A DNA stretch of 64,000 nucleotides. Origin: Kaistia sp. 32K (GTDB lineage Bacteria > Pseudomonadota > Alphaproteobacteria > Rhizobiales > Kaistiaceae). The stretch covers positions 4,764,501 to 4,828,500 of the forward strand of contig NZ_AP024269.1 of NCBI RefSeq assembly GCF_016629525.1, read 5' to 3'. The notes under the pieces were generated by a model. That model made no database searches and was not told the DNA's origin. It worked only from the letters and a program-made list of their open reading frames with translations. The position numbers and the translations under genes are program-made. Below, piece after piece: positions 22,190-38,774 of the stretch; position 1 is the stretch's first letter, and each line of letters opens with the position of its first letter.

Positions 22190-22315
22190 CCTTATTTATA
22201 TATCGCGAGCTGGGCTCACCGCAGAGTGCTTTCGCTTGGCCGACTCACGGACGGGCCAACCCGAGCATGTTTGCAGAGCGGGCTTGGTGCCGGAGGCGGC
22301 CATCAACGGGCACGT

Positions 22316-22881: not shown

Positions 22882-22896
22882 CTCAATCCCCACCGA

Positions 22897-23197: not shown

Positions 23198-23575
23198 GTC
23201 TATTTGATTTCCCCGACGGAAAGCTGCCATATCAATTCGAAATTTGAAGTAAAATATTCGTGATGAGGTAATTTACTGCCTTGACGTCCAGAAAATGACA
23301 CAAAAATCTGATCATCAGGTTGCTGATCGATTCTGTTGGTAATTGTAGATTGTGGATTGACTTACTGTTTAAGTGTAGTCCGCAAATGGGGTGATCGCCT
23401 CGCGGTGTCCGAGCGGTCGGACTATCCAATCGTCTGAGGTCGCTACTCCCTTCGTTGACTGGTGTCGTCCCGCCAGCGTTTGCGTTTTTTGGGGGCCTCT
23501 CCGATTGCCCTGAGGCTGAGGGGCAAATGCTGTCAGGCACGATCAGAGGATTTCGTGAGGCCAGGGGGTAGGACG
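23198..23575. other. AT-rich intergenic region of the element
   Basis: About 380 bases with no supported gene, between divergent small genes. Contains a TTGACT (near 23357) that could be part of a promoter and short self-complementary words (CTGATCATCAG near 23310). Confidence 0.4.
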
Positions 23576-23689
23576 ATGATTGGCAGATACGAGGTAATCC
23601 TACGTGCGCTCGTCTATTCGGCGCTGATCGCAGTCTCGGTCCTGATTTGGTGGCGCGTGGCTGTCTGGATCTACGCCTATTCCGCCTGA
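23576..23689 (+). CDS. Small single-span membrane protein
   Basis: 37 residues, MIGRYEVILRALVYSALIAV then a Trp-rich end, one transmembrane helix covering most of it. ATG 23576 follows AGGGGGTAGG, a strong ribosome site, which is the main support for a real gene. No family recognised; a longer in-frame start at 23462 is possible but has no helical continuation. Confidence 0.4.
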   Translation: MIGRYEVILRALVYSALIAVSVLIWWRVAVWIYAYSA

Positions 23690-23703
23690 ACTCAGCGGCC
23701 GCT

Positions 23704-24003
23704 TCATCGCCGGTCCCACTCCTCTCCGAATACCTTCTCTTCCCCCATCATCAGGCATTTCAATTCCCATGCTGTTTCCCGGCACCGCCGGCACAGCGGT
23801 TGGCAAGGCTGCCGTTTGACATGTTGCCGCATGCAGATCACCGCGGCGATTTCGTCCCGACGGGGGTTGGCGAGATAGGCGCGCAACGCTTGCAACAGCA
23901 GGAGCGCCGTATCCGGTGTGAGTCGCACCTCCCTCTGTCGGTTGACCTTTTGCTCCAGCCTGGCGAGGACCGCCCAAGGCGAAAGAGGTCGGCGGGTGGT
24001 CAT
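23704..24003 (-). CDS. Hypothetical small Cys-containing protein
   Basis: 99 residues. Helical first half (PWAVLARLEQKVNRQREVRL, LLLLQALRAYLA), then a region with four cysteines (VICMRQ, CQPLCRRCRE, ELKCLM) that could bind a metal. Overlaps the upstream 61-residue gene by 4 bases (ATGA). Not recognised. The pair may be under the LexA box at 24207. Confidence 0.6.
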   Translation of the reverse strand: MTTRRPLSPWAVLARLEQKVNRQREVRLTPDTALLLLQALRAYLANPRRDEIAAVICMRQHVKRQPCQPLCRRCRETAWELKCLMMGEEKVFGEEWDRR

Positions 24004-24185
24004 TGCTGGTCCGGCAAGCGACCGCGCACATAGCCGTATGAAATGCGCTCGGCCCGGCTGTCGGCCGCCAGCAACAGCATCTCGATGACGGCTCGCGGGT
24101 CGCCGCGATGGGCGGCGAGCAGGCTCTCGACCCTGGCATCCAGAGCTCGCTGTTCTTCCTCAAAGGCTTCCGCGGACCGGCCCAT
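24000..24185 (-). CDS. Hypothetical small helical protein, first gene of a LexA-box operon
   Basis: 61 residues, strongly helical and acidic: EAFEEEQRALDARVESLLAA. The start codon lies 22 bases from a perfect LexA box, and the gene overlaps the next by 4 bases. No family recognised; if the box is functional on this side, this is a SOS-induced operon. Confidence 0.6.
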   Translation of the reverse strand: MGRSAEAFEEEQRALDARVESLLAAHRGDPRAVIEMLLLAADSRAERISYGYVRGRLPDQQ

Positions 24186-24206
24186 GGCGCTCTCCTCTAG
24201 GCTTCC

Positions 24207-24221
24207 GTTCCTATTTTGTTC
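24207..24221. promoter_or_regulatory. LexA (SOS) box, alphaproteobacterial type
   Basis: GTTC (24207-24210), seven bases, GTTC (24218-24221): exact match to the alphaproteobacterial direct-repeat LexA site GTTC-N7-GTTC. It stands between a small minus-strand operon and the plus-strand SRAP gene, a family named for its association with SOS genes. Confidence 0.7.
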
Positions 24222-24309
24222 TCATCTCTTCTGGAGTCAATGCGGCACCGTGCGGGGCTGTTGACGGCGAGGACTTCCATTTTGCGGGGGCCCCGGTAGG
24301 CTTCGGCCC

Positions 24310-25068
24310 ATGTGCAACCTCTATTCGATGACCAGAACGCAGGATGCCATCCGCGCCTTCGCCAAAGCGTTGCGCGACCACGCGGGCAATCTGCCGCCTT
24401 TGCCAGGCATCTTTCCCGACTACCCGGCACCGATCGTTCGGAACGCGGTGGACGGCGTGCGGGAATTGGCGTTCGCTAGATGGGGCATGCCATCGTCGCA
24501 GTTCGCGCTCATGGAGGCGACGAAGAAGCGTGCCGCCAAGCTGCAGGCGAAAGGGCATCAGGTCGACTTCAAGGAACTGCTCCGCATGGAGCCGGACACC
24601 GGAACGACCAACGTCCGGAATGTGACGAGCAAGCACTGGCAGCGTTGGCTCGGCGTCGAGAGCCGCTGCGTCGTGCCCTTCACCTCATTCTCGGAGTTCA
24701 ACAAGCTCGAAGGTGGCGACGTCTGGTTCGCCTTGGCCGAGGACCGGCCGCTGGGGTTCTTCGCCGGGATCTGGACCACCTGGACGAGCGTCCGAAAGGT
24801 GAGGGAGGGTGAGACGACGAACGACCTGTTCGCCTTCCTGACCACCGAGCCGAACGAGGTCGTGGCGCCTATTCATCCGAAGGCGATGCCGGTGATCCTG
24901 ACGACGTCGGAGGAGATCGATGTCTGGATGAGGGCGCCGGCGAACGAGGCCCTCGCACTGCAGCGGCCGCTACCGGGCGACAGCCTGCTGATCGTCGCTC
25001 GTGGAACCAAAGAAGATGGCGGCGAGGCGTCGTCCATCGAGCCGCCGGCCGAGCCGCTTCTACTGTAG
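24310..25068 (+). CDS. SOS response-associated peptidase (SRAP/YedK/HMCES family)
   Basis: SRAP proteins form a thiazolidine crosslink to abasic sites in single-stranded DNA through Cys2. The start MCNLYSMT exposes that Cys after Met removal; the conserved [29 protein letters not shown] and FAGIWT, and the active-site His in HPKAMPVIL are all present. 252 residues. A LexA box lies 90 bases upstream, matching the name of the family. Mobile elements often carry SRAP. Confidence 0.93.
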
Positions 25069-25632
25069 GCCGTTGCGCATGTGGTTGGCTTCAACAAAGG
25101 CCAACACTTCCTGCCAGTTGTCTGTGGCGAGGAGCTCATCCATCCAATGAACCCTCTCGTCACAGACGGAAAATCGGGGCGACTCCGGGTCCTCTCTCAG
25201 CTTGGGGTCCGCAAATTCGACGAAAATCCGCATGTGGCCAACAACCCAGGAGGGATAAAGACTACAGTCGCTTGACTGATCGTTCCATTCTTCAGGAATC
25301 TCGGGAAGGTCGGACTCAGGGTAACCGGGAAAGTGGCGTCTGAATTCGCACAGGCGCCTGTCACCAGTGTTGTCGGGCATATCCCGGCCCGTGATGTCTT
25401 GCCTCATGCGCATTTGGACCGTTAGTGCGTCCTGAAGTTCCTCCTCCACTTGAGCTGCGGCATCCGTTAGGACGTCGACTAGCTGCGGTAGCAGGTGTGG
25501 GGGGAGGCCTAGTAGGAGCTGCCCTCCTGCGACTTCGAGCCATAGCACCACCAGAGGGCTGCCATCCGCAGTGCTCAATCCGGTCCCGTAGTTCAGGACC
25601 TCCTCAACGAGGACCTCGTTGCCATTTGCCAT
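25060..25632 (-). CDS. Hypothetical acidic protein
   Basis: 190 residues from ATG 25632, chosen for its GGGAG ribosome site (an ATG at 25680 lacks one). Strongly acidic, with a beta-rich N-terminus ([34 protein letters not shown]) and a Trp/Tyr-rich C-terminus. No family recognised. Convergent with SRAP and overlapping its last nine bases. Confidence 0.6.
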
Positions 25633-25907
25633 GACCTGGTCTCCCGCCCAATCGATTGTGCTTCGTGAGGATGCAATCATAGGTGTTAGGCAGGTTCTAG
25701 CAAGTACCGCAATCTAGGTAGAGGCAAACCTCTGCAACGCGATGGATCGATGTCGGCCGGCGGCGCTGGGCCGGCTGATCCATCGCTCTACGACAGCGAA
25801 AATGGTCGCGCCTTCGCGCTGCCGCCAGGTTGACCGGCTAGCAGCGCCTCGGAATATGATCGTCGTCCCCTTTTCGGGCTTTTGCGGCGGACATCGCTCA
25901 GCTTGCA

Positions 25908-26357
25908 CTATTTTGGACATTTTGTGAGGGGCTGGCTGTACCAGTGGTTGCCATTGCCTGGCTGTTCTTCACCCACTCGAAGGGTCTTTCCAGGTTTGAT
26001 CCATTCGAGATTGAAGCGCATCGCCTCTCCGGGAGTCTCCTCAATCGTGCAGGTCGCATCAATGAAGCCTGTCGTGAAGATGTCCTTGCCGTCGCCCTTT
26101 GTGGAATAGAGAAATCGATCGATCTGACAATCCATGCCGGGTGTCTCAAGGCTTTTGTGACCGATGGATAGGAAGGGAGCGTTTATCTCCATTGGGTCGC
26201 CGTTGCACTGATCGCGGTGTGTCACCCAGACACCTAAATAGGCCTTTGTGAGCCCCGGGTCGGCGACAGCTTCGCTGTAGGCGGCGGCTCCGGTGACCAC
26301 CGAGCCGGCAAGCAGCACACTCAATCCGTACTCCAGCACACCTCGTCCCCAGACCAT
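25908..26357 (-). CDS. Hypothetical exported protein
   Basis: 149 residues from ATG 26357. N-terminal hydrophobic segment YGLSVLLAGSVVTGAAAYS fits a signal peptide cleaved near residue 25. Mature part has four cysteines (QCNGD, MDCQID, ATCTIE, TKCPK) that could form two disulphides. No family recognised. Divergent from the XRE gene at 26445. Confidence 0.6.
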   Translation of the reverse strand: MVWGRGVLEYGLSVLLAGSVVTGAAAYSEAVADPGLTKAYLGVWVTHRDQCNGDPMEINAPFLSIGHKSLETPGMDCQIDRFLYSTKGDGKDIFTTGFIDATCTIEETPGEAMRFNLEWIKPGKTLRVGEEQPGNGNHWYSQPLTKCPK

Positions 26358-26384
26358 GCTTCCCCCAAATTCGATCAACCGACT

Positions 26385-26650
26385 TTTACATACTTTAGTT
26401 GATAAAATGTGATTAGGAAATGGGTCACCGGTTGGCGCATGGATATGCGCCAATTGGTCGGTCGGAACTTTGCACGCCTGCGTCGGGAAAAGGGACTGAC
26501 TCAGGAGCAGGTCGAGCAGCGCTCGGGGTTCAGCCAGCAGTATCTCAGCGGTCTTGAGCGTGGACAGCGCAATCCAACAGTGATCACGCTTTACGAGTTA
26601 GCCCAAGCGCTCGGAGTGGATCACGTTGAGCTAGTCCGACCCGATCTGCT
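26385..26650 (+). repeat. Direct repeat copy 1, XRE gene and upstream region
   Basis: Nearly identical to 27811-28077, covering a leader with TTTACATACT(T/A)TAGTTGATAA, the conserved GAAATGGGTCACC, and an XRE coding region. This copy encodes an intact protein. Repeats lie about 1.4 kb apart in the same orientation. Confidence 0.9.
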
Positions 26651-26660
26651 GTCCGACTAG
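26445..26660 (+). CDS. XRE-family helix-turn-helix regulator (intact copy)
   Basis: 71 residues: LVGRNFARLRREKGLTQEQVEQRSGFSQQYLSGLERGQRNPTVITLYELAQALG is a full Cro/C1 HTH. The start ATG 26445 is the one shared with the decayed copy at 27871; ATG 26439 is an alternative. The upstream segment contains ACTTTAGT, close to palindromic ACTATAGT in the other copy, a possible own operator. Probably an autoregulated element repressor. Confidence 0.85.
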   Translation: MRQLVGRNFARLRREKGLTQEQVEQRSGFSQQYLSGLERGQRNPTVITLYELAQALGVDHVELVRPDLLSD

Positions 26661-26964
26661 ACGCGGCAGGGTTGCCGCCTCATCCGCTTGGATTTCATCC
26701 TGCGGAGCCCTCGGAGCTCCAACGGCCGCCGGGTGGAAAAGCCCCACCGCGAGCAAGGCGCCTTCTAGCAGCAACCAGCTACGGCGAACCGGCCAATGAA
26801 ACAAGCGCTAAGAGGACGCTCTGGAATTCTGATCGTCATCGGCTTGGCTGGCTGATGAATTCACAATTCCGCCTCGCCTGCCCCCCGCCTTTGGGCCTGG
26901 GAGCAAGGAAAGCTGGTTCACTCAGAGCAGTGACCCTCTGGTTCATCCGGGCTGCGCGCAGAAC
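26661..26964. other. Intergenic region, no gene supported
   Basis: About 300 bases between two genes of the element. An interrupted inverted repeat (GGAGCCCTCGGAGCTCC near 26702-26718) follows the XRE gene and may act as a terminator; nothing else is seen. Confidence 0.4.
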
Positions 26965-27585
26965 CTAGTCATTCGTCGCCAAGGCGTTCAGAAGTGCGGG
27001 GGTATAGAGTACTCGACACCCAAAGAGGCATCGACCTAGTACGGTTACGGGTATCGTCACTACCTCTCGAGACTCCCTCTTCTGCAGGTAGACCAATGCA
27101 TCGTTATTGTCGTTAAAAATGCTTAGGGTTGGGGACGAGACGCCAGTGATGGAGTAGAGGCTACCAAGAGGAAGATGTTTAAGGACCGTGTCCTGGGCTG
27201 CCTCACCCGTGAGGGCGTCATTCTGCAGGGCGGCAAAAACGAGAAGGCCGCAGATTGGAACGAGAAGGATCGCCTTTGACTTTGGCTTTGTGGGACTTGC
27301 GTTGGCAGGCGGGATCGCCCCTGTTTCGCTGGTGGCTGGTGATGGCGTTGCCTGATTGGAAGCGGGAACACCCGTCAGCCTTTTCCCTCTGCCTCTCCGC
27401 ACGAGGATCACGTAGAAAAGGGGACCAAATATAGAGAATAAGATTGCGACAGTGTGGAACGCGTCCGAGGTTCCTGGGCCCCTGAAAAACGCACTCGCAG
27501 CGAGCATCAGAATCGCCCCAAGGCCTGCTAGCAGGTAAGCGCGCCATGCGGGCAGAGCGGCTATCAAAGCGTTAAAAGACATCAT
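26965..27585 (-). CDS. Hypothetical membrane protein
   Basis: 206 residues with about three hydrophobic segments: AYLLAGLGAILMLAASAFF, VAILFSIFGPLFYVIL and AILLVPICGLLVFAAL, separated by a Pro/Ala/Thr linker; C-terminal about 85 residues appear soluble, probably extracytoplasmic. No family recognised. Placed between the two direct repeats. Confidence 0.6.
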   Translation of the reverse strand: MMSFNALIAALPAWRAYLLAGLGAILMLAASAFFRGPGTSDAFHTVAILFSIFGPLFYVILVRRGRGKRLTGVPASNQATPSPATSETGAIPPANASPTKPKSKAILLVPICGLLVFAALQNDALTGEAAQDTVLKHLPLGSLYSITGVSSPTLSIFNDNNDALVYLQKRESREVVTIPVTVLGRCLFGCRVLYTPALLNALATND

Positions 27586-27810
27586 AGTTCATCTCAGTTC
27601 GGAGTTGGTCAGCGGTTTATGAAGGATCTCTGCACCAGTGCGCACCAAGACCCGACTGTTCCTCCCCCGTACGAAGAGTGTTGCCAGAGTGCTCGGCCTT
27701 CTACAGCGCTCCCGCCGACGCAATGGGCGGTCATGAGAAGGCAATACGACGATTTGGCAAGATTTCTAGCGAAGTGCATTTCACCTCCCCCATTCCGCTA
27801 AGAGCTTCCC

Positions 27811-28077
27811 TTTACATACTATAGTTGATAATGCGCGATCGCGAAATGGGTCACCCGCTAGCGCAGTGATATGCGCCAATTGGTCGGTCGGAACTTTGCA
27901 CGCCGACGTCGGGAAAAGGGACTGACTCAGGAGCAGGTCGAGCAGCGCTCGGGGTTCAGCCAGTAGTATCTCAGCGGTCTTAAGCGTGGACAGCGCAATC
28001 CAACAGTGATCACGCTTTACGAGTTAGCCCAAGCGCTCGGAGTGGATCACGTTGAGCTAGTCAGACCCGATCTGCTC
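27811..28077 (+). repeat. Direct repeat copy 2 (decayed XRE gene region)
   Basis: Second copy of 26385-26650, with scattered substitutions. The segment TTTACATACTATAGTTGATAA contains a perfect palindrome ACTATAGT. Encodes the pseudogene described separately. Confidence 0.9.
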
Positions 28078-28086
28078 GCTGATTGA
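27871..28086 (+). pseudogene. XRE regulator with nonsense mutation
   Basis: Aligns codon by codon with the gene at 26445 and has the same length (216 bases), but the CAG codon at position 32 is TAG (27964-27966), so translation stops in the HTH. Other changes such as Leu to Arg (ARRRREKG) and Glu to Lys (GLKRGQ) are also present. The equivalent protein would otherwise end LADstop. Confidence 0.85.
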
Positions 28087-28240
28087 TCGATTGCCTTCCC
28101 AAAAGGCTTTGCGCCGAATTCGTGGTTCGATCGAGCGTAAGCGAGACTGCACGTCCGCAAAGCATGGGCATGCCTTTACGAGATATAGGATTTTATTCAT
28201 ATTTAGCCTCGAAATGTCGTTGTCGAGTGGCTGGTTCGCT

Positions 28241-28627
28241 ATGAAGATCGAGGTCTCTGCAAAAATTTTGTCGTCAGCGCTGGCAGCGATCGAAAGGATC
28301 CCCATCGCGTTGAGAAATATACATTCGAGGCGGTGGCGCGCCGTTGAGACTGAGGTGCTCCGCTTGGTCGAAGATCATGAAGCTGCTGAGGCGCTCAGCG
28401 TCGTCGTATTTGCTCGTATCGAGGGGCTCTGTGATCTTCTGGAAGAGCCGTCGCTGAAGGAATGGATCCTGCGTGGGGATGTAGCCCGAGAATTCCGGCT
28501 GCATGTGGATCTCGTCTCCGCAGCTGCGAAGGTCCCAATGGCTTTGACCGAGAACGGGTTCATTTTTGACCCTGTCACCCTCGGAGAGGAGGCCGCTGTG
28601 ATCGCAACGGCTCGGCGAAGAGCATGA
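28241..28627 (+). CDS. Hypothetical protein coupled to tyrosine recombinase
   Basis: 128 residues from ATG 28241 (MKIEVSAKILSSALAAIERI), mostly helical: VETEVLRLVEDHEAAEALSV and IEGLCDLLEEPSLKEWILRG. An in-frame start at 28214 or 28091 is possible. Stop overlaps the recombinase start by 4 bases (ATGA), so it likely acts with it, perhaps as an accessory or excision factor; no family recognised. Confidence 0.5.
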   Translation: MKIEVSAKILSSALAAIERIPIALRNIHSRRWRAVETEVLRLVEDHEAAEALSVVVFARIEGLCDLLEEPSLKEWILRGDVAREFRLHVDLVSAAAKVPMALTENGFIFDPVTLGEEAAVIATARRRA

Positions 28628-29571
28628 ATTGGCTCGTAGAGCAGCATGGGCTGCCTCTTTTGCCTGGTGAAACCGCAGCGATGAACAAGGCAGTTCTTGA
28701 ATTCTTTGCTGCTCAGATACGGAACGGCCATACGCGAAAGGCCTATGCCCGGGCCACTTCAGAGCTCCTGGCTTGGTGCCGGATCCGTGGCTTAGCTCAG
28801 TTGGAGGACGTGTCCTCGCTTCATATCGCTGCCTGGCTTGATGAGCAGCTGGAACGTGGTGCTCCAGCGTCCGCGAAGCAAAAGCTTGCAGCCATAAAGC
28901 GGTTTTTCGAGTTCCTTACCGCTCAACGAGTTTTGGCAACCAATCCTGCAGCCTACGTGAAGGGACCGCGCTTTTCGGTGAAGAGGGGCACCACCCCTGT
29001 GATCGAGGGCGCTGATGTCAGGAAAATCCTCGGTAGCATTGAGAATACAACGATCAAAGGGCTCCGGGACAGGGCCTTGATCGCGACGATGGCATATAGC
29101 TTTGCTCGAATTGGAGCCGCCCTGAAGCTAGACACAGGAAGCGTCTTTAGCGTCGGTCGTCGTCTGTGGATCAGGCTCTTTGAAAAAGGTGGCAGCGTTC
29201 ACGAGATGCCATGCCACCACACTCTTGAAGCATGCCTGATGGAGTACCTCGACGCTGCGGATCTCGCTGAGGATCCGAAAGTCCCCCTCTTTCAGTCGAT
29301 CGCAAAGGGGGCCGCTCGCCTGTCAGGCCGTCGGCTAGCTCATGCTAACGCGTACAATATGGTTAGGGAGAGAGCGAGAAAGGCTGGCGTTATTTCGCCG
29401 GTCTGCTGCCACACATTCCGTGCCACGGGCATTACCAGCTATCTGATGAATGGCGGAACTATCGAGTATGCCGCACTGATGGCAAATCATACGTCGATTC
29501 GCACCACGCAACTTTACGACCGAAGGGGTGATGATGTTCAGCTCGATGAGGTTGAAAAAATCTATTTCTAA
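28624..29571 (+). CDS. Tyrosine recombinase/integrase
   Basis: XerC/D-like phage-integrase fold, 315 residues. N-terminal SAM-like core-binding domain about 20-110 (RKAYARATSELLAWCRIRG). Catalytic residues visible: R162 in SFARIGA, a likely K188, H263 and R266 in CHTFRAT, H289 in ANHTSIRTTQ, and nucleophile Y298 in LYDRR. Distinct from the serine recombinase; follows a 128-residue gene and precedes a Rep-like gene, so this trio may be a second, nested mobile module. No tRNA gene is nearby. Confidence 0.9.
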   Translation: MNWLVEQHGLPLLPGETAAMNKAVLEFFAAQIRNGHTRKAYARATSELLAWCRIRGLAQLEDVSSLHIAAWLDEQLERGAPASAKQKLAAIKRFFEFLTAQRVLATNPAAYVKGPRFSVKRGTTPVIEGADVRKILGSIENTTIKGLRDRALIATMAYSFARIGAALKLDTGSVFSVGRRLWIRLFEKGGSVHEMPCHHTLEACLMEYLDAADLAEDPKVPLFQSIAKGAARLSGRRLAHANAYNMVRERARKAGVISPVCCHTFRATGITSYLMNGGTIEYAALMANHTSIRTTQLYDRRGDDVQLDEVEKIYF

Positions 29572-29658
29572 AATAAAGGCATTTATTTACTTAATATGAC
29601 TTCTATTATTTATATATAATCATATGCATTTGAAGAATTGTAGGAGTCTATAGAGGAT

Positions 29659-30588
29659 ATGATTGGAAATATAGCGGCGAACATTGAGAAGATTAATATA
29701 AGAGAGAGAGTTCCTAGCATCTTGTCGCCCGGAACGGCTCCTCGCGGCATTGCCAAAAAGAAGCGCTTTCAGACTGCACTCACGGCTGCCGGTCATCACG
29801 AACTTGCCGCCGCGATTAGAGAATGCCGAACCAATCGACGTTGTGGGAGCACCTACTGCGCCACCTGTCGTCGGGAACTTGGAGAAACCTCGAGGCGGCG
29901 GATAACCGACTATCTCCTGCAGACCTTCAAGGGCGACGAGGCTGCGATTCGCGAGGAGGTTCGGCATGTCAGCGGGCTTATTGCCTTAACTACGATGAAC
30001 CAAAATTGTGTCATTGCAGCCATAGAAGACGGTCGAAAGATCTTTCGGAAGCTTCGCAGGGGGCGTCCGTGGCTTTGGATCGAGGGGGCGTACGAGTTGG
30101 AGCTAGTGAGCCTGGGCCACTGGCGGAAAATGAACGCTGAAAATTCAGCTGTAAAAAAGGAACAAATTCTTGCGCTGTTGGATTCGGCTCCCAACCGCTC
30201 TGAGCTTGAAGCCGCAGACACGCTCGTTCTGGTTCACTGGCATGTTCTAATGGCAAATATCTATAAAACTGACCCTTCAAAGCCAAGGATGAGAAGCGCC
30301 CTTGATGTTTTAAAGTCCGAGTATGGGCAGCATTCCAGGCAGCTTTATGTGCAGAAGCTGCATGCCTCAAAGAACATTGAGGACTCGATGGCTAAAATTT
30401 CCAGCTACGCATTTAAAGATCAATATCGATTTAAATACTCGTTCGAGGGCAACGATTTTGAGAACGGAGAGTATATAGATGACAAAAATCTAGGTGAGTT
30501 CATATCTTTAAGCCGACTGGTCGCGGGGGGTAGGCGACGAAGTACAAGTATATACTATGGATTTCAAGAAGGCTTTCGGTCGCCTTGA
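29659..30588 (+). CDS. HUH-type Rep-like protein (rolling-circle initiator/relaxase-like)
   Basis: 309 residues. Zinc-finger-like cysteines C56, C62, C67 and C70 (ECRTNRRCGSTYCATC), a motif-1-like LIALTTM at about 107-113, an HUH motif H193-W194-H195 (LVHWHVLM), and a Tyr motif Y250-x-x-K253 (YAFK). Order and spacing match rolling-circle Rep proteins and HUH nucleases in general, but overall similarity to a named family is not visible to me. Coding strand is AT-rich. Downstream region could hold an origin. Alternative: an unrelated zinc-binding protein. Confidence 0.55.
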   Translation: MIGNIAANIEKINIRERVPSILSPGTAPRGIAKKKRFQTALTAAGHHELAAAIRECRTNRRCGSTYCATCRRELGETSRRRITDYLLQTFKGDEAAIREEVRHVSGLIALTTMNQNCVIAAIEDGRKIFRKLRRGRPWLWIEGAYELELVSLGHWRKMNAENSAVKKEQILALLDSAPNRSELEAADTLVLVHWHVLMANIYKTDPSKPRMRSALDVLKSEYGQHSRQLYVQKLHASKNIEDSMAKISSYAFKDQYRFKYSFEGNDFENGEYIDDKNLGEFISLSRLVAGGRRRSTSIYYGFQEGFRSP

Positions 30589-31268
30589 TTGGATATGTAC
30601 CTTGTTAAATGTTATAGTGAATTCACTTCAGTTTATAAAGTGAGGTCGCGGTGCAGCGTGTTTCGTTGAGATTTGACTGTAAAAATAGGCTATCGGCTTA
30701 GTCGTTGGCCTTTCAGGAGCAGGCTTCTCACCAGCGTTCGTTATTTCTAAAATAATCCGCTACTAGTAAAAGTGAATATAAGCTGCTCGCCTTGTGGATC
30801 GGGGGCATGGTCTGCCCGCGTCCGAGCATGTGAATGTGAATGATCGCTTTTGCGCCCAATCTCGGCCTTTAAGGCGGTCTTGGCGATCGCCCGTAATGCC
30901 GTGTCCGCTCAGGTCGCCACAACCTCCAAGCAGGGTGGGAAACGGATTGGCAGGTTTCAGGCGACTACGCCGGGAAAGCTGCCCCTCACCTCGTCAACGA
31001 GCATCCGCGGCAAAGTCCTCAGCTCGCCGTTTTGGAGGGACGAGGCATTTCTCGGGAGCGGACGTTCGTTGCGTTCTGTATAAGCTGCTTAAGCTTGAAC
31101 GATCGTGCCTAGCCCACGAAAACGTTTGGCAGGCTTAGGCTTGCTCCGGTGCGGCGGCGACGGTGAAATTGAACATCGATGGCACTGCACCTAGCGACGC
31201 CGCAATAGATGGCGCGACGGAGGCTAGCCAGCTCGCTCGAAGGCGGGTTGTTGATCCAAGTCCCACCG
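30589..31268. other. Long AT-rich intergenic region after the Rep-like gene
   Basis: About 680 bases with no gene I can support. A palindrome AGTGAATTCACT near 30618-30629 and nearby TCACTT...AAGTGA words suggest a protein or origin site. The 30794-31138 open frame has no recognisable product and may be a decayed remnant; it is adjacent to the 3' end of the ubiquitin-like operon. Confidence 0.4.
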
Positions 31269-31709
31269 CTAAAGGCCGAGCCAGTCCCTGAAGCGAACGA
31301 TGAAGCTATTCCTCTTCTCCGGTACCTCGGGCGGCGCGGAATGGAAGTAGGGCGGCGCGGTATTGATCTGGCCGTAGTAGCGCTGCTTGGCGTCACGCTC
31401 ACGGCGACGTTCCGTCTCCACCTGATCATCGCTCCACGCCCCGGCTTTGATGACCTTGCCGCGCTTGATGATGTAGTGCGAGCGGCACCGTAGCGTCCAG
31501 CTGCCCACGGAGGGACTGAGCGAGACGGTTTCTCCGTCGAAGTCGATGCGCCAGTCGGTCGGCGTGAACGGTGTGACGACCTCCTCGCCACACCCGCAGC
31601 AGCAACCATGGGCGGCAGTCGCATATTCCATCGAGATATAGAGTATCCCGGGCTCCAGATTGTCCGGGATGAGGGAGGTGAAGCGGTGCTCGAGACGCGC
31701 ATGGAGCAT
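31269..31709 (-). CDS. DUF6527 family protein (ubiquitin-like system component)
   Basis: 146 residues. Signature: YISMEYATAAHGCCCGCGEEVVTPFTPTDW then SPSVGSWTLRCRSHYIIKRG, with a cysteine cluster C36-C37-C38-C40 and C75/H78 that probably binds zinc. DUF6527 proteins commonly neighbour ThiF and multi-ubiquitin genes. The ATG overlaps the E1 stop in TAATG, so translation is coupled. It is the last gene of the minus-strand operon. Molecular role unknown; the C-terminal tail is basic and Trp-rich. Could act as a partner, regulator or peptidase substitute. Confidence 0.85.
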   Translation of the reverse strand: MLHARLEHRFTSLIPDNLEPGILYISMEYATAAHGCCCGCGEEVVTPFTPTDWRIDFDGETVSLSPSVGSWTLRCRSHYIIKRGKVIKAGAWSDDQVETERRRERDAKQRYYGQINTAPPYFHSAPPEVPEKRNSFIVRFRDWLGL

Positions 31710-32884
31710 TATTGCCTGTCCTCGTTGAGCAGCATGTTGCCATCCGTCGTGAAGGTGCTGTGGTGTTCATTCTCGAGGTCGCGGTAGAAGCCGCGCAGTT
31801 TCTTCCACTTCATCACAGCCAAGGCCGCGTTGAGCATGTTGAGGTCGGCGACCTGGATGTTGGTAGCGTAGACAGCATCAGCCGGTGCGCTATGGAAGGA
31901 GATGCGCCCGTTATGGACGTGATTGCGCTTGGCGGGCGTGCTAGCGGTGACGCGGAGAATGCCGCCGAGCGAGCCGTCGACCAGTTCGAGGCCCATCCCG
32001 ACGTCGATGAAAGGGACGCCCATCGCTTCGAGCTTGGCGATCACCGTCCGCTTCGCGTCACCTGCATCCATCGAGAGAAATGCGAAAGTGATGCCTTCCA
32101 GCAGGTGCACATTGTTTGCGTCGATGTCGACGGCATGGGGGACGATCCCCTTGTGCATGCGCGAATAGATCGAGGCGAAATACTCCACCTTCGGCGCTGC
32201 CGTCCGCAACTGGTCGATAGAAGGTGCCCCAGGCGCACGGAATGCGTTGTGCTGCAGGAAGGTGTCGCTATCGAACAGGTGAATCTGGTCGACAGGTGCC
32301 TTTGCCGTTTGGTCCAGGATGTAGCCCCCTGTTCCGCCGAGCCCGATGATGCCGATCTTCTCGCCTTCGAGACGTTCGGCGAGGGCACCGATACCAGCAC
32401 GGTCCGAGGCGGTCTCGGTATAGTGGAATACCGAGGTCGCCTGATCTTCAGGAACTTGGAAGACGCGCGGGCTCAGGCCCGGCTGCAGAACCGCTGCAGG
32501 GCCGGCGAGGATGCTCGCATAGGCGGTCATCTTCTTATAGTAGTCCGGGTACCCTTCAGATGGCTTGCTAGAAAAGGAGTGACGTGATGTTAGACCATGG
32601 CCCAGTTCCGACGTCACGCTCTGGTGCATGATTGCGGAAATGGGGCTGCCATCGGCGTGGCACGGATACTCGCCATCGAAAAACATCACGTGCGTGTCGG
32701 GTGGACAGGTCCGATCCCCAGCCATTGTAAGGCTGGAGATCAACTTGCCCATTTTCACTTGGCGGGAAGCGTTAACGTAGGGCACCTGGTCCATGACCAG
32801 ATAGCCCCCGCGTTGCACCACGACATAGCCTTCGTCGCGGAGCTGCTTGAGATCGGGATTAAGACTGAACAGTGCGGGTGACAT
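31709..32884 (-). CDS. E1-like ThiF-family adenylyltransferase with N-terminal extra domain
   Basis: 391 residues from ATG 32884, preceded by AAAGGA at good spacing and overlapping the multi-ubiquitin gene's 3' end by 26 bases. N-terminal domain about 1-160 (YVVVQRGGYLVMDQVPYVNA, then the TCPPDTHVMFFDGEYPCHADG segment, of the DUF6791 kind) is followed by a ThiF Rossmann domain with IGIIGLGGTGGYILDQ near 177-192, HLFDSDTFLQHNAFRAPGAP and the FIDVGMG region. Adenylates a ubiquitin-like C-terminus in related systems. No Cys is present in the ThiF half; Cys60 and Cys75 are the only ones seen, both in the N-terminal domain. Confidence 0.87.
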   Translation of the reverse strand: MSPALFSLNPDLKQLRDEGYVVVQRGGYLVMDQVPYVNASRQVKMGKLISSLTMAGDRTCPPDTHVMFFDGEYPCHADGSPISAIMHQSVTSELGHGLTSRHSFSSKPSEGYPDYYKKMTAYASILAGPAAVLQPGLSPRVFQVPEDQATSVFHYTETASDRAGIGALAERLEGEKIGIIGLGGTGGYILDQTAKAPVDQIHLFDSDTFLQHNAFRAPGAPSIDQLRTAAPKVEYFASIYSRMHKGIVPHAVDIDANNVHLLEGITFAFLSMDAGDAKRTVIAKLEAMGVPFIDVGMGLELVDGSLGGILRVTASTPAKRNHVHNGRISFHSAPADAVYATNIQVADLNMLNAALAVMKWKKLRGFYRDLENEHHSTFTTDGNMLLNEDRQ

Positions 32885-33620
32885 TGAACGTCGTTCCTTT
32901 CTTGACGGTGACGACACCGCCGATGCCGAGCTCACCCTGGTGGGGCTTGGACTTTGCATGGCGGTAGGTCATCGAGAACACGACATTGGCTTCCGGGGCG
33001 CCCGGAAAGGCCAGCTGCACGACCTGCTCGAAAGTCACGTCCGGACCGGCGACGATGCGCTGGCGGGCATTAACGATAATCTCGATCTGCTGACGCGGCT
33101 TGGGAGCGGTGATAAAGTGCTCGATGCCAGGCTCGTCAAGATCGATGAGATCTTCGGTCTCGATCAGGCGGTCGGTGCCACCCGGCACCTCAAGGAAAAC
33201 AGCTTCATCGGCACCGACCTCCGCCAGGGCATAGAGGACGGCGCCGCTGATGATGCGCTTGCCCCATTCGATCTGGGCATCATTGACCGTAGCCTTGTAG
33301 TCGCGGTCGGTGACGAAGGCGATGAAGCGCTCCACGCCGTGCTCGCGGAGATCGAAGGGTTCGTCCAGCCGGATATCCTCGAAATCACCCGAGGCCAGAA
33401 TGGCGAAGAGGCTCACCCCGGCCTTTGGCTTGAGGCCCCCGGCAGCCAGGATCTGACGGCCCAGCGGGACGGGATCGGGGACTGTGATGGGCTTGAAATC
33501 CAGATTGCCGTTGGCGAACTGAATGCGATAGTTGTTGGCACGGTTGAGGGCGCGTCCCTCACGGATTGCTATGCCGACATCTTCAATTTCCTGGGTGGCA
33601 GGACCACTTGTGACGCTCAA
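32859..33620 (-). CDS. Multi-ubiquitin domain protein (three beta-grasp repeats)
   Basis: 253 residues, Multiubiquitin-type (DUF2604 group). Three ubiquitin-like segments can be made out: about 30-105 (YRIQFANGNLDFKPITVPDP...), about 105-175 (ATVNDAQIEWGKRIISGAVL...) and about 176-253 (RQQIEIIVNARQRIVAGPDV... ending GVVTVKKGTTFNVTRTVQS). The family's last repeat ends FNVT-rich rather than in the GG tail of ubiquitin; no GG terminus is visible here. TTG start at 33620 behind GGAG. Likely the protein tag or scaffold of the conjugation-like operon, next to its E1. Confidence 0.85.
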   Translation of the reverse strand: MSVTSGPATQEIEDVGIAIREGRALNRANNYRIQFANGNLDFKPITVPDPVPLGRQILAAGGLKPKAGVSLFAILASGDFEDIRLDEPFDLREHGVERFIAFVTDRDYKATVNDAQIEWGKRIISGAVLYALAEVGADEAVFLEVPGGTDRLIETEDLIDLDEPGIEHFITAPKPRQQIEIIVNARQRIVAGPDVTFEQVVQLAFPGAPEANVVFSMTYRHAKSKPHQGELGIGGVVTVKKGTTFNVTRTVQS

Positions 33621-33666
33621 GATCGTTCTCCAGTGCTTCCCGGACTATCCGGGGGCTTCTGAAGGG

Positions 33667-36600
33667 CTAATCTGAGCGTATCGGGAAATCCGGTAGGGTC
33701 GATTTGGCTTTTTTTGTCAGGGTTCCGTCAGGAATCGGACCGCAGAAGAAAAATGCCGGGCAACCAGGGCAACGCCTGGGGTTCGGGTCTGTCGCGAACG
33801 CACCGGCAGCGATACTTTGGAGAGCATCGGTGATCTTCACTCGCCTGCCTTCCAGTTTTCTCGGGCTGAGTTCCACTGGGTCGAATGTGCCGTCCCCGAG
33901 GAAAACAAGATCGGCACGCGGTCGATCAGGGTGCTGTCCCGCAGCCAACACGAAAGCGGCGGCAGCCCAATCTTCCGTGCTCTTGGAGCTCGCGTGGCCG
34001 GTCCGGATCGTACGGACGATGTTGATCCCATCCCGCACGAGAGCTTCGTCCGGCATCACTTCGATCACACCATGGCCCGTGTCGAACTGGAGACGGGTAA
34101 CGGGTTTCCTTATATGGCCGATCCGGTTTTCGTGGAGGGACATTGCAAGCGAGCGTGCTATCTGCACGTACTCGACTCGATCGGCAGCATCGAAACCCTC
34201 CGCGTCGAAGGCAAGCCGTAGGCGGCGCTCGATCTCCATCAGTTCGACCGTGTCGGGGTCTTGCGCGACGATCCAATCGGTTACGTATCTAGTCGCTTTG
34301 TGCATGCGCATGAAGGCCGTTTCGGTCTGCCGTCCACCGACCTTGAGCAGGTAACTATAGAAAAAGCGCCGGGGGCATTTCTCATATTGCAGGATCTGCT
34401 GACCGGTGAACGAGGGCTTGTCCTCGAATACGATACTGATCGGCTTGTCTTCCGGCGCCGGGGGCACTGTCAGGGTCGGTGTTACCATACGTGGCACGGG
34501 GACGATGCGATCGATGAACGGCGAGTGGTTCATGGCCTTGCCGTCAACGGAGCGTGACTGCGAATAGCAGATCAGACGGTCCTTTGCGCGGGAGGTGGCG
34601 ACATAGAACAAGCATTCCTGCTCCTCCTCGTGGGCCTTGGCGCGAACCTCGACGCCGCTTTGTCCGCGGCTTTCGACGAGCCCATCGGGCGGCGCAATGC
34701 CTTGGATCTGGTTGGCCGACCTGGGCAAGCTGGCTGCAGTCAAGCCGGGTAAGTGCACGACCGGGAACTCCAGGCCTTTGCTGCCGTGGACCGTCATAAG
34801 TCGCACTGCATCCAGACCCTGGGCTGATGGCGGCAGCTGCCTGAGGTCGCGGTCGTCCGCGATGGAGACCAGACGACGGATGCGGTCGAGCATGTGCAGG
34901 ATCGGATCCGTTGTCCCGGGTGCGTTCCGGATGAAATTTAGGAACTGCCAGATGGCGATGCCGGCCGCACGATCCGCGATCACCCTCGACCGGGCGATTT
35001 CGCTTACTATGACGGTTCGATCCAGAAGCACTCGGGCGAGAACGTCCCATGGGCGCGACTGCCTATCGAAACCTGCCAGTACTGTACGCAGGTGGACAAG
35101 GGCTTGTTGGCCTTCCGGTGAAAGACCGGCGATCGGAAGATCCGCCGTCTTCCAGTCCTTTGCCTTGTCACTATGCAACTCCGCCACGATAGAAGCGAGG
35201 TCGGCCATCGACATGGCGAATGGTTTCATGGTCGCGACCCGTGCCAGCCCGAGCGCCTTGCTGTCGGCAACCACGGCTAGAATGGATAGCAGGTCCTTGA
35301 TCTCTGGTCGTTCGAACACGCTGCCGAGATACAGCACCGGTATTCCCAGGCTTTCGAGTCGGGCGCCGAATCGCGCCAGTTTGTCATTGCCCGTGCAGAG
35401 GACCGCCTGGTCACGAAAATCGTGGCCGAGGGCTTTCATCTCGTGGATCGCTTCCACCAATACCGCGACCTCGTCCTTATCTGTACCGGTCTTCCGGAAT
35501 TCGGGATGGTGGCCGCATGCCCCCCGGTCCGCGGCAAGCCTGGACGGTCGGCCGGCGGCTGTCTTCATTCCAGCGGCGAAATTGGAGAAGGCGTCGACAA
35601 TCTCCTCCCGGGACCGGTAGTTCACAGATAGGCGCCCAACTTCTGCGGTAGGGAAGTCCTCCTTGTCGAACAAATCCACGTTGACCGACGAGGCCCCACG
35701 GAAACGGTAGATCGACTGTTTGATGTCACCGACGACCCAGAGATTCTGCCCGGTTCCGACGATGGCCTTTAGCAGGCGCACGCTGCTGCGGTTGACGTCC
35801 TGATATTCGTCGACGAGCACATGCTTGTACTTGGACGCAAGAGCGTTCCGGATCGCGGGATCGCGCTCGAGCACGGTGACTGGAAGTGATACCAGGTCGC
35901 CGAAGTCGAGCAGTTTCCTCGGCGCCTTCAGCTCTTCGTAGCGCTGATAGACCTTGGCGACCTCGAGTACCTTCTCGGCGGTCTCAATCGCCTTAGGATC
36001 ACGGGAGCCGGCTGCCTCGGCCGCCACCATCATGGCCTCACCCAGCCGGCGGTAATCGTCCGGCGAGGCAACCTCGTCCTTTGCGCGCGAAATCGCTTGG
36101 AGGATGTCGTTGATGTCCCGAGTCGGATCCCACAAGTTGCGATAGTGAACCAGCCTGAGGGCGGGCAACTCTTTTTCGATCATAGCGATGCCGTCTGCCC
36201 GGTCTATCATTGTGGGCATTGGCGGCATGCCTATCGCGTCGGCGAAGCGCTTGATGATGTCGAGCCCAAAGGCATGGAAGGTACCGCACCACATCGCGGC
36301 GGCTGCATTCGGATTTGTCGCGCTGATGCGCTCCACCAATTCTCCGGCAGCCTTGTTGGAGAAGGTGAGGACCAATATTTCGCGCGGATCTGCTCCCTGC
36401 TCCAGCAACCAGTTAATCCGACCGACCAGGGTCTGCGTCTTGCCGGTCCCCGGGCCCGCTTCGAGAAGATACGGACTCCCGGAGTGGTGGGCCGCGTCGC
36501 GCTGTTCTTCGTTGAGGCCGCGGATGGCAACCTCCGCTGCCGGACGCTCTTCGACTTCGGGTAACAGCAGGGCATCGAGCATCTGCTGGGCGACAACGCC

Positions 36601-37104
36601 GAACGCGGCCCCTAACTTGTCGGCGATCTGTGTCGCTGTCAGGCCTCCGTCGATATGGAGGGATCGCGCGCGAGAGCGGGGCAGCAGCAGCTCGCGGGCA
36701 AACAGATCCATTTGGATTTCGCGGCGCTGGTTGCGACCGTAATCCTGAACGCGGTCCACGCCCACCGGAGCCGCGTCGACGCATCGCTCCTCGTCGACGG
36801 TAAGCACGCTATCTGCGACCTTGTCGTCGCCGAGGAGCACGTGGCCCAGCTCGTGCCCGATCAGGAATGCGTCGGAAAATGGCGAACCGGTTTCTTCGTG
36901 CAGAATGACTCGGAATTCCGGATCATAGCTCGCTCTAGCGCCGGCCAACGATGGGTGCCCCTTCGCCACCTTCTCGACCGTGACCCCCATGACCTTCGCG
37001 GCGAAGGCGGCCACCAGATAAGGCTGCCACGGGTCGACACCAGCGCTCTGCGCTTTCTGGAATAGCGCCGCCGACCGGCGCCGTCCGATCTCGACGCCAT
37101 CCAT
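33667..37104 (-). CDS. ImmA/IrrE metallopeptidase - UvrD helicase - AddB-like Fe-S nuclease domain fusion
   Basis: 1145 residues. N-terminal Zn peptidase: H84-ELG-H88 (IGHELGHVLLGDD) with a third ligand in REIQMDLFARELLLP near 129. UvrD/PcrA superfamily 1 helicase: Walker A GPGTGKT at 217-223, DEYQD at 432-436, VVGDIKQSIYRFRGA near 457, NYRS near 494, VHGSKGLEFP near 772 and ATSRAKDR near 836. C-terminal AddB/Cas4-like domain with Cys910 and C1112-x2-C1115-x5-C1121, an Fe-S cluster pattern. The expected DYK/TG catalytic motif appears as RTIRTG at 1031-1036, so nuclease activity may be lost. Central operon gene. Confidence 0.88.
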   Translation of the reverse strand: MDGVEIGRRRSAALFQKAQSAGVDPWQPYLVAAFAAKVMGVTVEKVAKGHPSLAGARASYDPEFRVILHEETGSPFSDAFLIGHELGHVLLGDDKVADSVLTVDEERCVDAAPVGVDRVQDYGRNQRREIQMDLFARELLLPRSRARSLHIDGGLTATQIADKLGAAFGVVAQQMLDALLLPEVEERPAAEVAIRGLNEEQRDAAHHSGSPYLLEAGPGTGKTQTLVGRINWLLEQGADPREILVLTFSNKAAGELVERISATNPNAAAAMWCGTFHAFGLDIIKRFADAIGMPPMPTMIDRADGIAMIEKELPALRLVHYRNLWDPTRDINDILQAISRAKDEVASPDDYRRLGEAMMVAAEAAGSRDPKAIETAEKVLEVAKVYQRYEELKAPRKLLDFGDLVSLPVTVLERDPAIRNALASKYKHVLVDEYQDVNRSSVRLLKAIVGTGQNLWVVGDIKQSIYRFRGASSVNVDLFDKEDFPTAEVGRLSVNYRSREEIVDAFSNFAAGMKTAAGRPSRLAADRGACGHHPEFRKTGTDKDEVAVLVEAIHEMKALGHDFRDQAVLCTGNDKLARFGARLESLGIPVLYLGSVFERPEIKDLLSILAVVADSKALGLARVATMKPFAMSMADLASIVAELHSDKAKDWKTADLPIAGLSPEGQQALVHLRTVLAGFDRQSRPWDVLARVLLDRTVIVSEIARSRVIADRAAGIAIWQFLNFIRNAPGTTDPILHMLDRIRRLVSIADDRDLRQLPPSAQGLDAVRLMTVHGSKGLEFPVVHLPGLTAASLPRSANQIQGIAPPDGLVESRGQSGVEVRAKAHEEEQECLFYVATSRAKDRLICYSQSRSVDGKAMNHSPFIDRIVPVPRMVTPTLTVPPAPEDKPISIVFEDKPSFTGQQILQYEKCPRRFFYSYLLKVGGRQTETAFMRMHKATRYVTDWIVAQDPDTVELMEIERRLRLAFDAEGFDAADRVEYVQIARSLAMSLHENRIGHIRKPVTRLQFDTGHGVIEVMPDEALVRDGINIVRTIRTGHASSKSTEDWAAAAFVLAAGQHPDRPRADLVFLGDGTFDPVELSPRKLEGRRVKITDALQSIAAGAFATDPNPRRCPGCPAFFFCGPIPDGTLTKKAKSTLPDFPIRSD

Positions 37105-37107
37105 CAG

Positions 37108-37698
37108 TCAGTCCTCCCGCAAGATCTCGGTCTTCTCGGCCTCGGTCAGCGTCGAACTCTCTATCAGCGACCGAAAAGTCACTTTCCCGCCTACCTGCGG
37201 TTTGACCTCGCTCTTAAAGCTCCTCACCGATGGCAGGGTTGGAGGCCGAGTCAGGTAGAAGCGCAGCATTTCCGTGGCGTATCCACCGGTAGACGCGATC
37301 TTGGCTATCCACCGCCCGGGGAAGCCTTCGAGTTCCACTAGCCCTGACCTGATGGCGCTTAGCACCGATACAGGTAGCCCGATCTCTCGCATCGGCATCG
37401 AGACGAGCGAAGCCTCTACTTGCTTTATCTGCTCGGCGGTGAGCTTCGGTCGTTCGGCAAAAACGATCCTGTTGAATTGTTCCCAAGCCGACTGGATTTC
37501 CGGCGCTTCGAGGTCTTGCGACGTTACGGACCTCTCTTCCAAAGACAGCCGCAAGTCCAAGGCCAGATCGAGCAATCCGTTTGCCAGATGCGGATAGTTC
37601 TCGATGTAGCGCTGAAGCGTCACCGAGCCGTGGTCGGGTTCGACCGAAAAGGCCAACATGACCTCTTCGTCATTCGGTGTTCCATTGGAATTGTTCAT
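37108..37698 (-). CDS. Hypothetical protein of the ubiquitin-like/UvrD operon
   Basis: 196 residues, no recognised family. N-terminal acidic region, a helical middle (NPYPHLANGLLDLALDLRL style) and VSMPMREIGLPVSVL near 100-120, ending in a polar tail. ATG overlaps the preceding stop (ATGA) and lies 3 bases before the peptidase-helicase start, so it is almost surely translated with both. Position right after a sigma-like gene suggests a partner such as an anti-sigma or adaptor; that is inference only. Confidence 0.65.
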   Translation of the reverse strand: MNNSNGTPNDEEVMLAFSVEPDHGSVTLQRYIENYPHLANGLLDLALDLRLSLEERSVTSQDLEAPEIQSAWEQFNRIVFAERPKLTAEQIKQVEASLVSMPMREIGLPVSVLSAIRSGLVELEGFPGRWIAKIASTGGYATEMLRFYLTRPPTLPSVRSFKSEVKPQVGGKVTFRSLIESSTLTEAEKTEILRED

Positions 37699-38468
37699 TC
37701 ATCATCCCCTTCCAGCGCGATCCTCACAGCCTTGTAGGCTCGGTCGCGCTTCTGCCGGGCGGCCTGTTCTCCGCAGCCGACAATGCTGCCTATCGTTGCG
37801 ACGGTGGGGGCGTTAGTCGTGAAAGGCATGCCCACCCAATCAAGGATCAGCACCTGGCGTTGGTCGTCCGGCAGAGCATCAATCGCGGTCCGCAAGCGAA
37901 TTCGGTAGATTGGGTCTGAATATTTTCCCGAGTTGAACGGGTTGAAGCCGGGCTCCGAGGTCTGGATTTTGTCGATTGCGTCGGTATCGTCGGGGAGGGC
38001 TATTTCCCTCCCGCCTTCTTTGTATTCTTTCGACAACGCCGTTCGTCGGAGAGCAGCCACCGCAGCCGCGAACCTAACCTCAAAAAAGTCGAGGCGTTCA
38101 TCGTAGCCGTTGTAGTCTTGTGCCAACATTTCCATGAACTTGCCAAGCGTTGTGGAAGCTGCCCGCTCTTCCGCCGCCACGAGAGGCCCATTCTCGCGGC
38201 GCCAACCTCCGGGCAGCACCTGCTTGAGGCGCAGAACCAGAATCTTCCAGATTTTCTCGTAGATAAGAGGCGAGCTTCCCCTGAATCTGCGAAGAAAATA
38301 CAGCAGGCACTCCGAACGAACAAAGTCCGGATCTTTGTTGTCTAGAATCGAAAAACGACGGATGCGCTCTTCTCCGGTGATTGCCGACAACTCGTCAATT
38401 TGCCTTTCGACTTCCGGGGGGCGCGCATAACCGACACCTCCCGTCTCCTTCCGCAGTGGTTCCGCCAT
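37695..38468 (-). CDS. Sigma-70 family RNA polymerase sigma factor-like protein
   Basis: 257 residues. The C-terminus resembles sigma region 4: RLRTAIDALPDDQRQVLILDW, then IGSIVGCGEQAARQKRDRAYKAVR as a helix-turn-helix. The middle (RSECLLYFLRRF ... RLDFFEVRFAAAVAAL) matches the region seen in divergent island sigma-like proteins rather than a canonical region 2. First gene of the minus-strand operon, so it may drive or respond to its expression. Ribosome site AGGGATAG before ATG 38468. Divergence makes true sigma activity uncertain. Confidence 0.65.
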   Translation of the reverse strand: MAEPLRKETGGVGYARPPEVERQIDELSAITGEERIRRFSILDNKDPDFVRSECLLYFLRRFRGSSPLIYEKIWKILVLRLKQVLPGGWRRENGPLVAAEERAASTTLGKFMEMLAQDYNGYDERLDFFEVRFAAAVAALRRTALSKEYKEGGREIALPDDTDAIDKIQTSEPGFNPFNSGKYSDPIYRIRLRTAIDALPDDQRQVLILDWVGMPFTTNAPTVATIGSIVGCGEQAARQKRDRAYKAVRIALEGDDE

Positions 38469-38752
38469 CTATCCCTGCCATGGGCTCCGACTTATTCCGA
38501 ACTTGAAACAGTTTGCTTCGATTCTTCGCCGAACAAAACTGTCATTTGCGAGAAACTGGAGCCATATTCGGTCCTGATCAGCAAAGGCGGCTTTCAGGAA
38601 GTCGTCAACGAAGCCCGAATGGCCGGAATAGGGAGCGAAGCCCACTGGCTGGTGCGCGGGCCGATGTTCGCAACTGGCGCAAACGTCCCGCCTCGGATGT
38701 CATATCCGATGGGACTCAATGCAAGACCTCATCGAACTCGGTCAGGCTTGAA

Positions 38753-38774
38753 TTAATAGGCTACACTACTAGGA
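38753..38774. other. Right attachment junction (attR) with inverted-repeat arm
   Basis: Inverted-repeat arm TTAATAGGCTACA at 38753-38765 and shared core AGGA at 38771-38774; host comM continues to the right. The element supplies the TAG stop (38761-38763) that ends the truncated comM N-terminal frame. Confidence 0.75.

Follow-up and report, generated by a model that had tools for sequence, protein, structure and literature searches.

In the window, a stretch of 64,000 nt from Kaistia sp. 32K (GCF_016629525.1, NZ_AP024269.1, positions 4,764,501-4,828,500; all coordinates below are relative to this stretch), six minus-strand genes at 31269..38468 form one conserved unit. They are transcribed in the order SIG-U196-helicase-Ubl-E1-DUF6527, so that a trio of two putative regulators and a peptidase-helicase fusion precedes a core for the conjugation of a ubiquitin-like protein (Ubl). 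It is proposed, with a probability of about one half, that the six genes constitute a horizontally moving stress or defence operon in which Ubl tagging is triggered by DNA. By analogy, the trio would be a helicase-fused DNA-damage switch of the CapH/CapP kind by which Ubl conjugation is started, probably in phage defence. The ubiquitin-like core, recognised in an earlier note on this DNA, is indeed present, and it is already known: it was described in 2006 as type 6e by Iyer and is related to Bub. What appears new is the conserved association of this core with two regulators and a peptidase-helicase, which is not described within the literature searched (titles and abstract starts; Gong 2025 and Ye 2026 may mention the trio). 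The features are as follows.

SIG, 37695..38468, minus strand: 257 aa; C-terminal sigma-70 region-4-like helix-turn-helix (HTH), N-terminal part of ~180 aa with unassigned fold.
U196, 37108..37698, minus strand: 196 aa, all-helical; middle domain (residues 85-161) lambda-repressor/XRE HTH-like.
Helicase, 33667..37104, minus strand: 1145 aa; ImmA/IrrE (M78) peptidase, UvrD and PD-(D/E)XK domain without catalytic motif; cysteines of the iron-sulfur (Fe-S) type.
Ubl (Multi_ubiq), 32859..33620, minus strand: three ubiquitin-like domains; C-terminus FNVTRTVQS.
E1, 31709..32884, minus strand: 391 aa (corrected start); DUF6791 (residues 10-158) and ThiF adenylating domain.
DUF6527 protein, 31269..31709, minus strand: 146 aa with a Cys/His cluster; probably a serine protease of the kind found in Bub-type systems.
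Mobile island with the operon, 20388..38764, no strand: inside comM, with a 12-bp inverted repeat at the ends and a large serine recombinase on the left.

The genes lie close together. SIG and U196 overlap by 4 nt, U196 and the helicase gene are separated by 3 nt and the latter and Ubl by 46 nt, and E1 and DUF6527 overlap by 1 nt. The start of E1 was moved from 32959 to 32884, since this conserved start yields an overlap with Ubl of exactly 26 nt (32859-32884 in the window), as in 68/68 loci measured. The bases at this junction encode both the C-terminus of Ubl and the N-terminus of E1. The SIG and U196 genes likewise overlap in 68/68 loci measured, and tight spacing is found in 67 of the 68 full loci, the plasmids and the window among them. 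The gene set, positions and junctions given in the earlier note were thereby confirmed, apart from the E1 start, and its suggestion of a single transcript is supported: the six genes are one likely transcription unit.

For the spread of the unit, an alignment of seven E1 sequences was searched against GTDB contigs. This gave 275 relatives, the best 80 of which defined the loci on which profiles of all six genes were run. All six genes occur in the same order in 68/80 loci (one with a broken helicase); 62 of the 68 pass every length and score cut, and in L012, L040, L068, L076, L082 and L090 the six genes are present with one short, cut or broken. The trio is absent from three of the 80 (L035, L049, L078), two have a damaged helicase and lack SIG and U196 (L014, L023), and seven are cut by contig ends (L061, with five genes, and L015, L016, L025, L028, L029, L075). 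For this E1 subtype, conservation of the order together with the helicase, on which the earlier note had made its claim of linkage depend, is therefore found. The bearers belong to at least six phyla, namely Pseudomonadota, Myxococcota (L013), Acidobacteriota (L041, L069), Planctomycetota (L045, L071, L072), Verrucomicrobiota (L038) and, on a plasmid (L005), the cyanobacteria, the phylum of the named genera being in part presumed. The same order also occurs on plasmids from Klebsiella, Acinetobacter, Rhizobium, Cereibacter and, there with a JAB-E1, Agrobacterium.

Pairwise distances among the six proteins correlate with r 0.91-0.97 (68 loci, counting those on plasmids, the one in the window and near-identical copies), and only 2/165 flanking open reading frames (ORFs; 25 non-redundant loci) have a homolog in at least three other loci. 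From the conserved order, the correlated distances and the mostly unrelated flanks it follows that the six genes are one conserved unit, and one that moves. E1 is matched by 116 plasmid records and U196 by 68; no match to E1 at E 1e-5 was obtained in 50,697 phage records. In E. coli, DNA close to the Klebsiella copy is present in 3/5426 genomes: one covers it entirely and has an open SIG frame, and the other two cover 59 percent and 37 percent of it. The system adjoins fimH in two E. coli genomes (L190, L191); in strain ES2 the opposite flank holds an integrase and tRNA-Leu, and the operon has lost its 5' part next to an insertion sequence, IS1.

The association of the trio with Ubl genes was also found in a sample of 397 Pseudomonadota genomes searched for Multi_ubiq and U196. 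Multi_ubiq occurs in 18/397 and U196 in 7/397, all seven among the 18; U196 is divergent and at most eight candidates were scored per genome, so copies may be missed. When the window genome is left out, U196 is present in 6/17 Multi_ubiq genomes vs 0/379 others (chance ~2e-9). The order SIG-U196-helicase-Ubl is kept in all seven, the window being one of them. Four of these trio genomes contain a DUF6791-E1, two (L134, L141) a JAB-E1 with Prok-E2_E fused to Ubl, and one (L132) a ThiF protein without a JAB match. The trio thus precedes two kinds of Ubl set, with DUF6791-E1 or with JAB-E1 and Prok-E2_E (L134, L141, L011), as would be expected of a switch module. Two or more kinds of Ubl set have this module in common, and the core also occurs on its own.

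Further arrangements of the trio and the core were observed on plasmids. In P. koreensis (L007, 8216-13022), SIG, U196 and the helicase gene have no Ubl gene near and are followed by an IS66 gene. In R. beringeri (L006, 134-10637), two Ubl operons lie back to back: the first, a JAB-type set, contains, besides the trio, JAB as a separate protein, a weakly ThiF-like protein and a Ubl with RGG as its end; the second, a DUF6791-type set without a trio of its own, adjoins it. Of the Multi_ubiq genomes that lack the trio, 6/11 encode an M78 peptidase no more than 3 kb away (G249 below the cut-off), and pairs of HTH protein and peptidase are readable by eye in L133, L136 and L049. Such HTH-M78 pairs before several trio-less operons favour the known repressor-peptidase logic. 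CapK/CapS-like pairs were also seen by eye before DUF6791-type Ubl operons (L139, 6143-7873; L078, 7824-9558), resembling CapK (HTH-STAS-GHKL) and CapS (STAS-winged HTH).

The surroundings of the operon bear on its function. The island of ~18.4 kb splits comM into an N-terminal half (38761-39420) and a C-terminal half (19494-20378), and an exact 12-bp inverted repeat (20388-20399 and 38753-38764) is taken to mark its ends. A large serine recombinase ORF (20165-22189, Pfam) lies at the left end. Elsewhere in the island, at 28091-30588, a tyrosine recombinase (28624-29571) stands between two genes without significant family match. Across the loci the flanks are rich in integrases, phage integrase being the commonest among the 25 of 70 Pfam families listed. 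Proteins were compared with PADLOC families in a random 75 of the 118 eligible flanking ORFs (of the 165) and in 75 control proteins (from 126 ORFs at 20 places hand-picked at round coordinates, six of them in Multi_ubiq genomes). At least 9/75 flanking proteins match vs 0/75 controls, as counted from 25 of the 36 matching families, a contrast that is not specific to defence islands, as the flanks are often mobile islands and the controls ordinary genome. The count comprises eight unrelated family names, AbiEii in two proteins; the families are AbiEii, DarG, type III restriction, oligonucleotide cyclase, Aga nuclease, AbiU, Mad3 and Mad8. This neighbourhood amounts to a defence-like setting, in line with the idea of the earlier note, and from it a defence role of the operon appears likely.

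That limit of the contrast weighs against the proposed operon, as do two counts from the genome sample: the trio is absent from five of the nine DUF6791-E1 operons, and among Multi_ubiq genomes at large it is found in 7/18. The earlier linkage of Ubl and helicase genes accordingly holds for this E1 subtype (68/80 loci) and is less general among Multi_ubiq genomes as a whole.

A function in DNA repair or element maintenance, in which Ubl would be joined at stalled forks to proteins of repair or replication and would help the mobile element or plasmid without any anti-phage role, is rather unlikely. It agrees with the presence of the operon on plasmids and in an integrated island that also contains a SRAP (SOS-associated peptidase) gene (24310-25068), and a general stress role of Bub was left possible by the authors of PMC13373217. 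The defence-gene neighbours, the unrelated hosts and the few shared flanking genes speak against it and in favour of the stress or defence operon proposed above.

The helicase protein was assigned to Peptidase_M78 (PF06114, E 3e-11), UvrD and PD-(D/E)XK by Pfam. The three domains of the peptidase-helicase-nuclease fusion in the earlier note are thus all present, but in the nuclease part the catalytic motif is missing throughout the family. Invariant in 77/77 helicases are the M78 residues H84, E85, H88 and E129 (HExxH), Walker A and Walker B, and four cysteines (C910, C1112, C1115, C1121), whose spacing is presumably that of AddB/Cas4-kind Fe-S nuclease domains. The catalytic D...[DE]xK of AddB/Cas4-type PD-(D/E)XK nucleases is absent across the 77 sequences: D1019 is kept in 76/77, while position 1032 is D/E in 0/77 and position 1034 is K in 5/77. 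Several rhizobial copies are followed, after ~3 kb, by a second UvrD-type helicase of the RecB-like kind (L009 13463-16861, L014, L020 and others).

These features bear on whether the helicase could itself be the effector, attacking phage DNA like GajB or RecB-type enzymes, with the Ubl system modifying or restraining it. The intact Walker motifs would fit this, as would the best PADLOC matches, which are of the DRT and Gabija types (RTasHel 1.3e-70, GajB 1.2e-61). The loss of the nuclease motif, compared to the RecB-like helicases beside some operon copies that keep D...DWK in 10/10, argues against it, and no GajA-like gene (the OLD nuclease partner) is found among the Pfam or PADLOC matches of the operon; an effector helicase is therefore considered improbable. 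The lost [DE]xK and the kept Fe-S cysteines rather suggest DNA reading than DNA cutting, and we infer from the sequence a protease-bearing protein that binds DNA or moves along it, and not a DNA-degrading effector.

The two regulators are less well defined. SIG matches Sigma70_r4_2 in Pfam with E 5.7e-4, below the cut-off of that family, which 40/47 relatives of SIG match at E of 0.1 or lower (best 1e-6). Of the 23 families listed for the 47 members none is a region 2 family, and one weak RpoE stretch has E 0.51. An assignment of SIG as a sigma factor proper was not retained: FliA gave E 1e-4 with a 9-sequence profile and only 0.16 with the 47-sequence profile. SIG is thus predicted to be a region-4-like HTH protein, and the sigma label is weak because the region-4 HTH alone supports it. 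The term sigma-70-like in the earlier note is consequently justified by region 4 in the relatives, but not by the window protein, which stays below the cut-off, nor by a listed region 2. Upstream of SIG, in 56 non-redundant regions, hexamer-like pairs are common to at most six loci (shuffles: three) and are read as relatedness rather than as a promoter motif. For U196 only sub-threshold ATP-grasp matches were obtained in Pfam. Its middle domain weakly resembles lambda-repressor/XRE-type HTH domains, and K162 and P167 are conserved in the C-terminal stretch. By analogy, U196 is proposed as a candidate substrate of the M78 peptidase.

SIG and U196 might instead be a sigma/anti-sigma pair without DNA sensing, the M78 peptidase merely maturing the helicase or Ubl. 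Region 4 in most SIG relatives and the overlap of the two genes at every locus measured are compatible with this, yet the HTH-M78 pairs at the same place in several trio-less operons point elsewhere, and such a pair is quite improbable. That a Ubl operon and a DNA-repair cassette, two types of gene that are both common in islands, became neighbours by chance is refuted by the order and overlaps kept across six phyla and by U196 being seen only with Multi_ubiq (7/7) in the genome sample.

The conjugation core is better recognised. Ubl contains three Multi_ubiq stretches (PF14452, E 7.9e-57) and matches a related solved Ubl (PDB 9cd2, E 9.9e-28), the alignment running through T-D-K, one residue short of the end. 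The last residue is Ser in 73/73 non-identical relatives; among 89 Ubl matches, other ends occur only in the two of JAB type, L006 (RGG) and L011, and DUF6791-type Ubls without the trio end in Ser in 5/5. The overlap of the last Ubl codons with the E1 start may add to this conservation. E1 consists of an N-terminal DUF6791 and ThiF (Pfam), and it is over ThiF that the fold matches listed for it lie. In the adenylation site, nine residues are conserved in 76/76 and two more in 75/76. C75 of DUF6791 is the only cysteine present in all 76 E1s, and H65, G71, P74 and C75 are found in 81/81 when five distant members are included. In an AlphaFold2 model, DUF6791 has helices, four strands, His65 and Cys75 ten residues apart and then a long helix; we take the spacing of this His/Cys pair to resemble that of E2 enzymes. 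As an E2 domain DUF6791 received no support from profile comparison: hhalign gave 0.08 and 0.10 percent against Prok-E2_B (10 sequences; L149, a cut-out without the E2 motif, was dropped) and Prok-E2_A (6 sequences), values no higher than those that four unrelated controls span (0.06-0.62). From the sequence features, DUF6791 could serve as an E2-type acceptor.

The claim that no separate E2 or JAB gene is present holds for recognisable genes, but the His/Cys pair of the E1 could take the role of an E2. Prok-E2_E was looked for in the ORFs of 89 loci with two domain queries (phmmer, single-sequence searches), and only L011 matched. No JAB match was found in the operon by Pfam, and with phmmer JAB queries the sole matches are in the L011 variant and in L006, the source of the query. 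The DUF6527 protein (PF20137, E 1.2e-23) has H34, C36, C37, C38, C40, S67, C75, S77 and H78 in 71/71, and the RefSeq label at its position in E. coli ES2 is 'ubiquitination-like system serine protease family protein'.

From these elements the following mechanism can be envisaged. In the resting state, the HTH-like U196 would keep SIG and/or the promoter silent. Phage replication or damage would expose single-stranded DNA (ssDNA), on which the helicase part would bind or move, and the DNA-engaged helicase would activate its fused M78 peptidase. The peptidase would then cut U196, in the manner of DdrO cleavage by PprI and CapH cleavage by CapP, and the freed SIG would drive the operon in a positive feedback. 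Subsequently, E1 would adenylate Ubl, which would be attached to targets, perhaps with DUF6791 as built-in acceptor domain, while the DUF6527 protein would process or remove the tag. The outcome would probably be abortive or phage-restricting. Of the earlier idea of a DNA-damage- or phage-sensing defence that tags a target protein, the link of Ubl with helicase and peptidase and the defence-like setting stand, whereas the mechanism is the conjecture just outlined. A tentative step further, to be held with considerable reserve, would be a new class in which a Ubl system is placed under a DNA-reading protease, with an SF1 helicase, its Fe-S nuclease domain retired, that acts as both sensor and motor of its own N-terminal peptidase, a Ubl with Ser instead of Gly at its end and DUF6791 as E2-type acceptor within E1. 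If true, bacterial Ubl conjugation would be coupled to a specific DNA-sensing device. This raises the questions of how E1 handles a Ser-ending Ubl, of the role of DUF6791 and of an Fe-S-type nuclease domain that is kept without its active site.

Several known systems share parts of the operon. With Bil (bacterial ISG15-like) it shares Ubl, E1 and protease in one operon. Bil has separate E2 and JAB proteins, neither of which is recognised in the window operon by Pfam or phmmer. The core of superfamily 1 (SF1) helicases is common to Gabija GajB and UvrD-like defence helicases, but the helicase described here differs from these in its N-terminal peptidase fusion and inactive C-terminal nuclease.

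Type 6e 'polyUbl' operons were reported from alpha-, beta-, gammaproteobacteria and others. According to that paper (PMC1779556), they contain a tandem Ub-like protein, an E1 with JAB or a distinct N-terminal domain X instead, and a small metal-binding protein with the signature C-x3-C-x35-38-H-x2-C; an inactive E2/RWD-like domain is listed, fused in some species and not called universal. The tandem protein (three PF14452 stretches) and the E1 with a distinct N-terminal domain (DUF6791 and ThiF) are shared, and we infer that DUF6791 is domain X. DUF6527 has C36, C37, C38, C40, C75 and H78 without matching the exact signature, and no inactive E2/RWD-like domain was found here (Pfam; phmmer in the 89 loci, only L011). 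The regulator-peptidase-helicase trio is not in row 6e, and the main text has no occurrence of 'sigma' or 'uvrd'.

With Citrobacter BubABCD the operon shares an E1 of the BubCD fold, but DUF6791 stands in place of a JAB fused to E1. As to an E2 like BubB, no Prok-E2_E is recognised, and the E2-like His/Cys pair of DUF6791 has no support from hhalign. Among published Bub operons, 219/544 have CapW or CapH+CapP and 59/544 have CapK+CapS (PMC13373217), whereas the regulator here is SIG, U196 and M78-UvrD. The closest parallel to the switch is offered by CapH/CapP and DdrO/PprI (IrrE), where PprI is stimulated by ssDNA and CapP is said to act likewise (PMC10904395). In common with these, the operon has an M78 peptidase with intact HExxH beside a HTH-like protein, ahead of an immune-type operon. 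What sets it apart from both is the fusion of the peptidase to an SF1 helicase whose Fe-S-type nuclease domain is dead, and the preceding gene, which has a sigma region 4.

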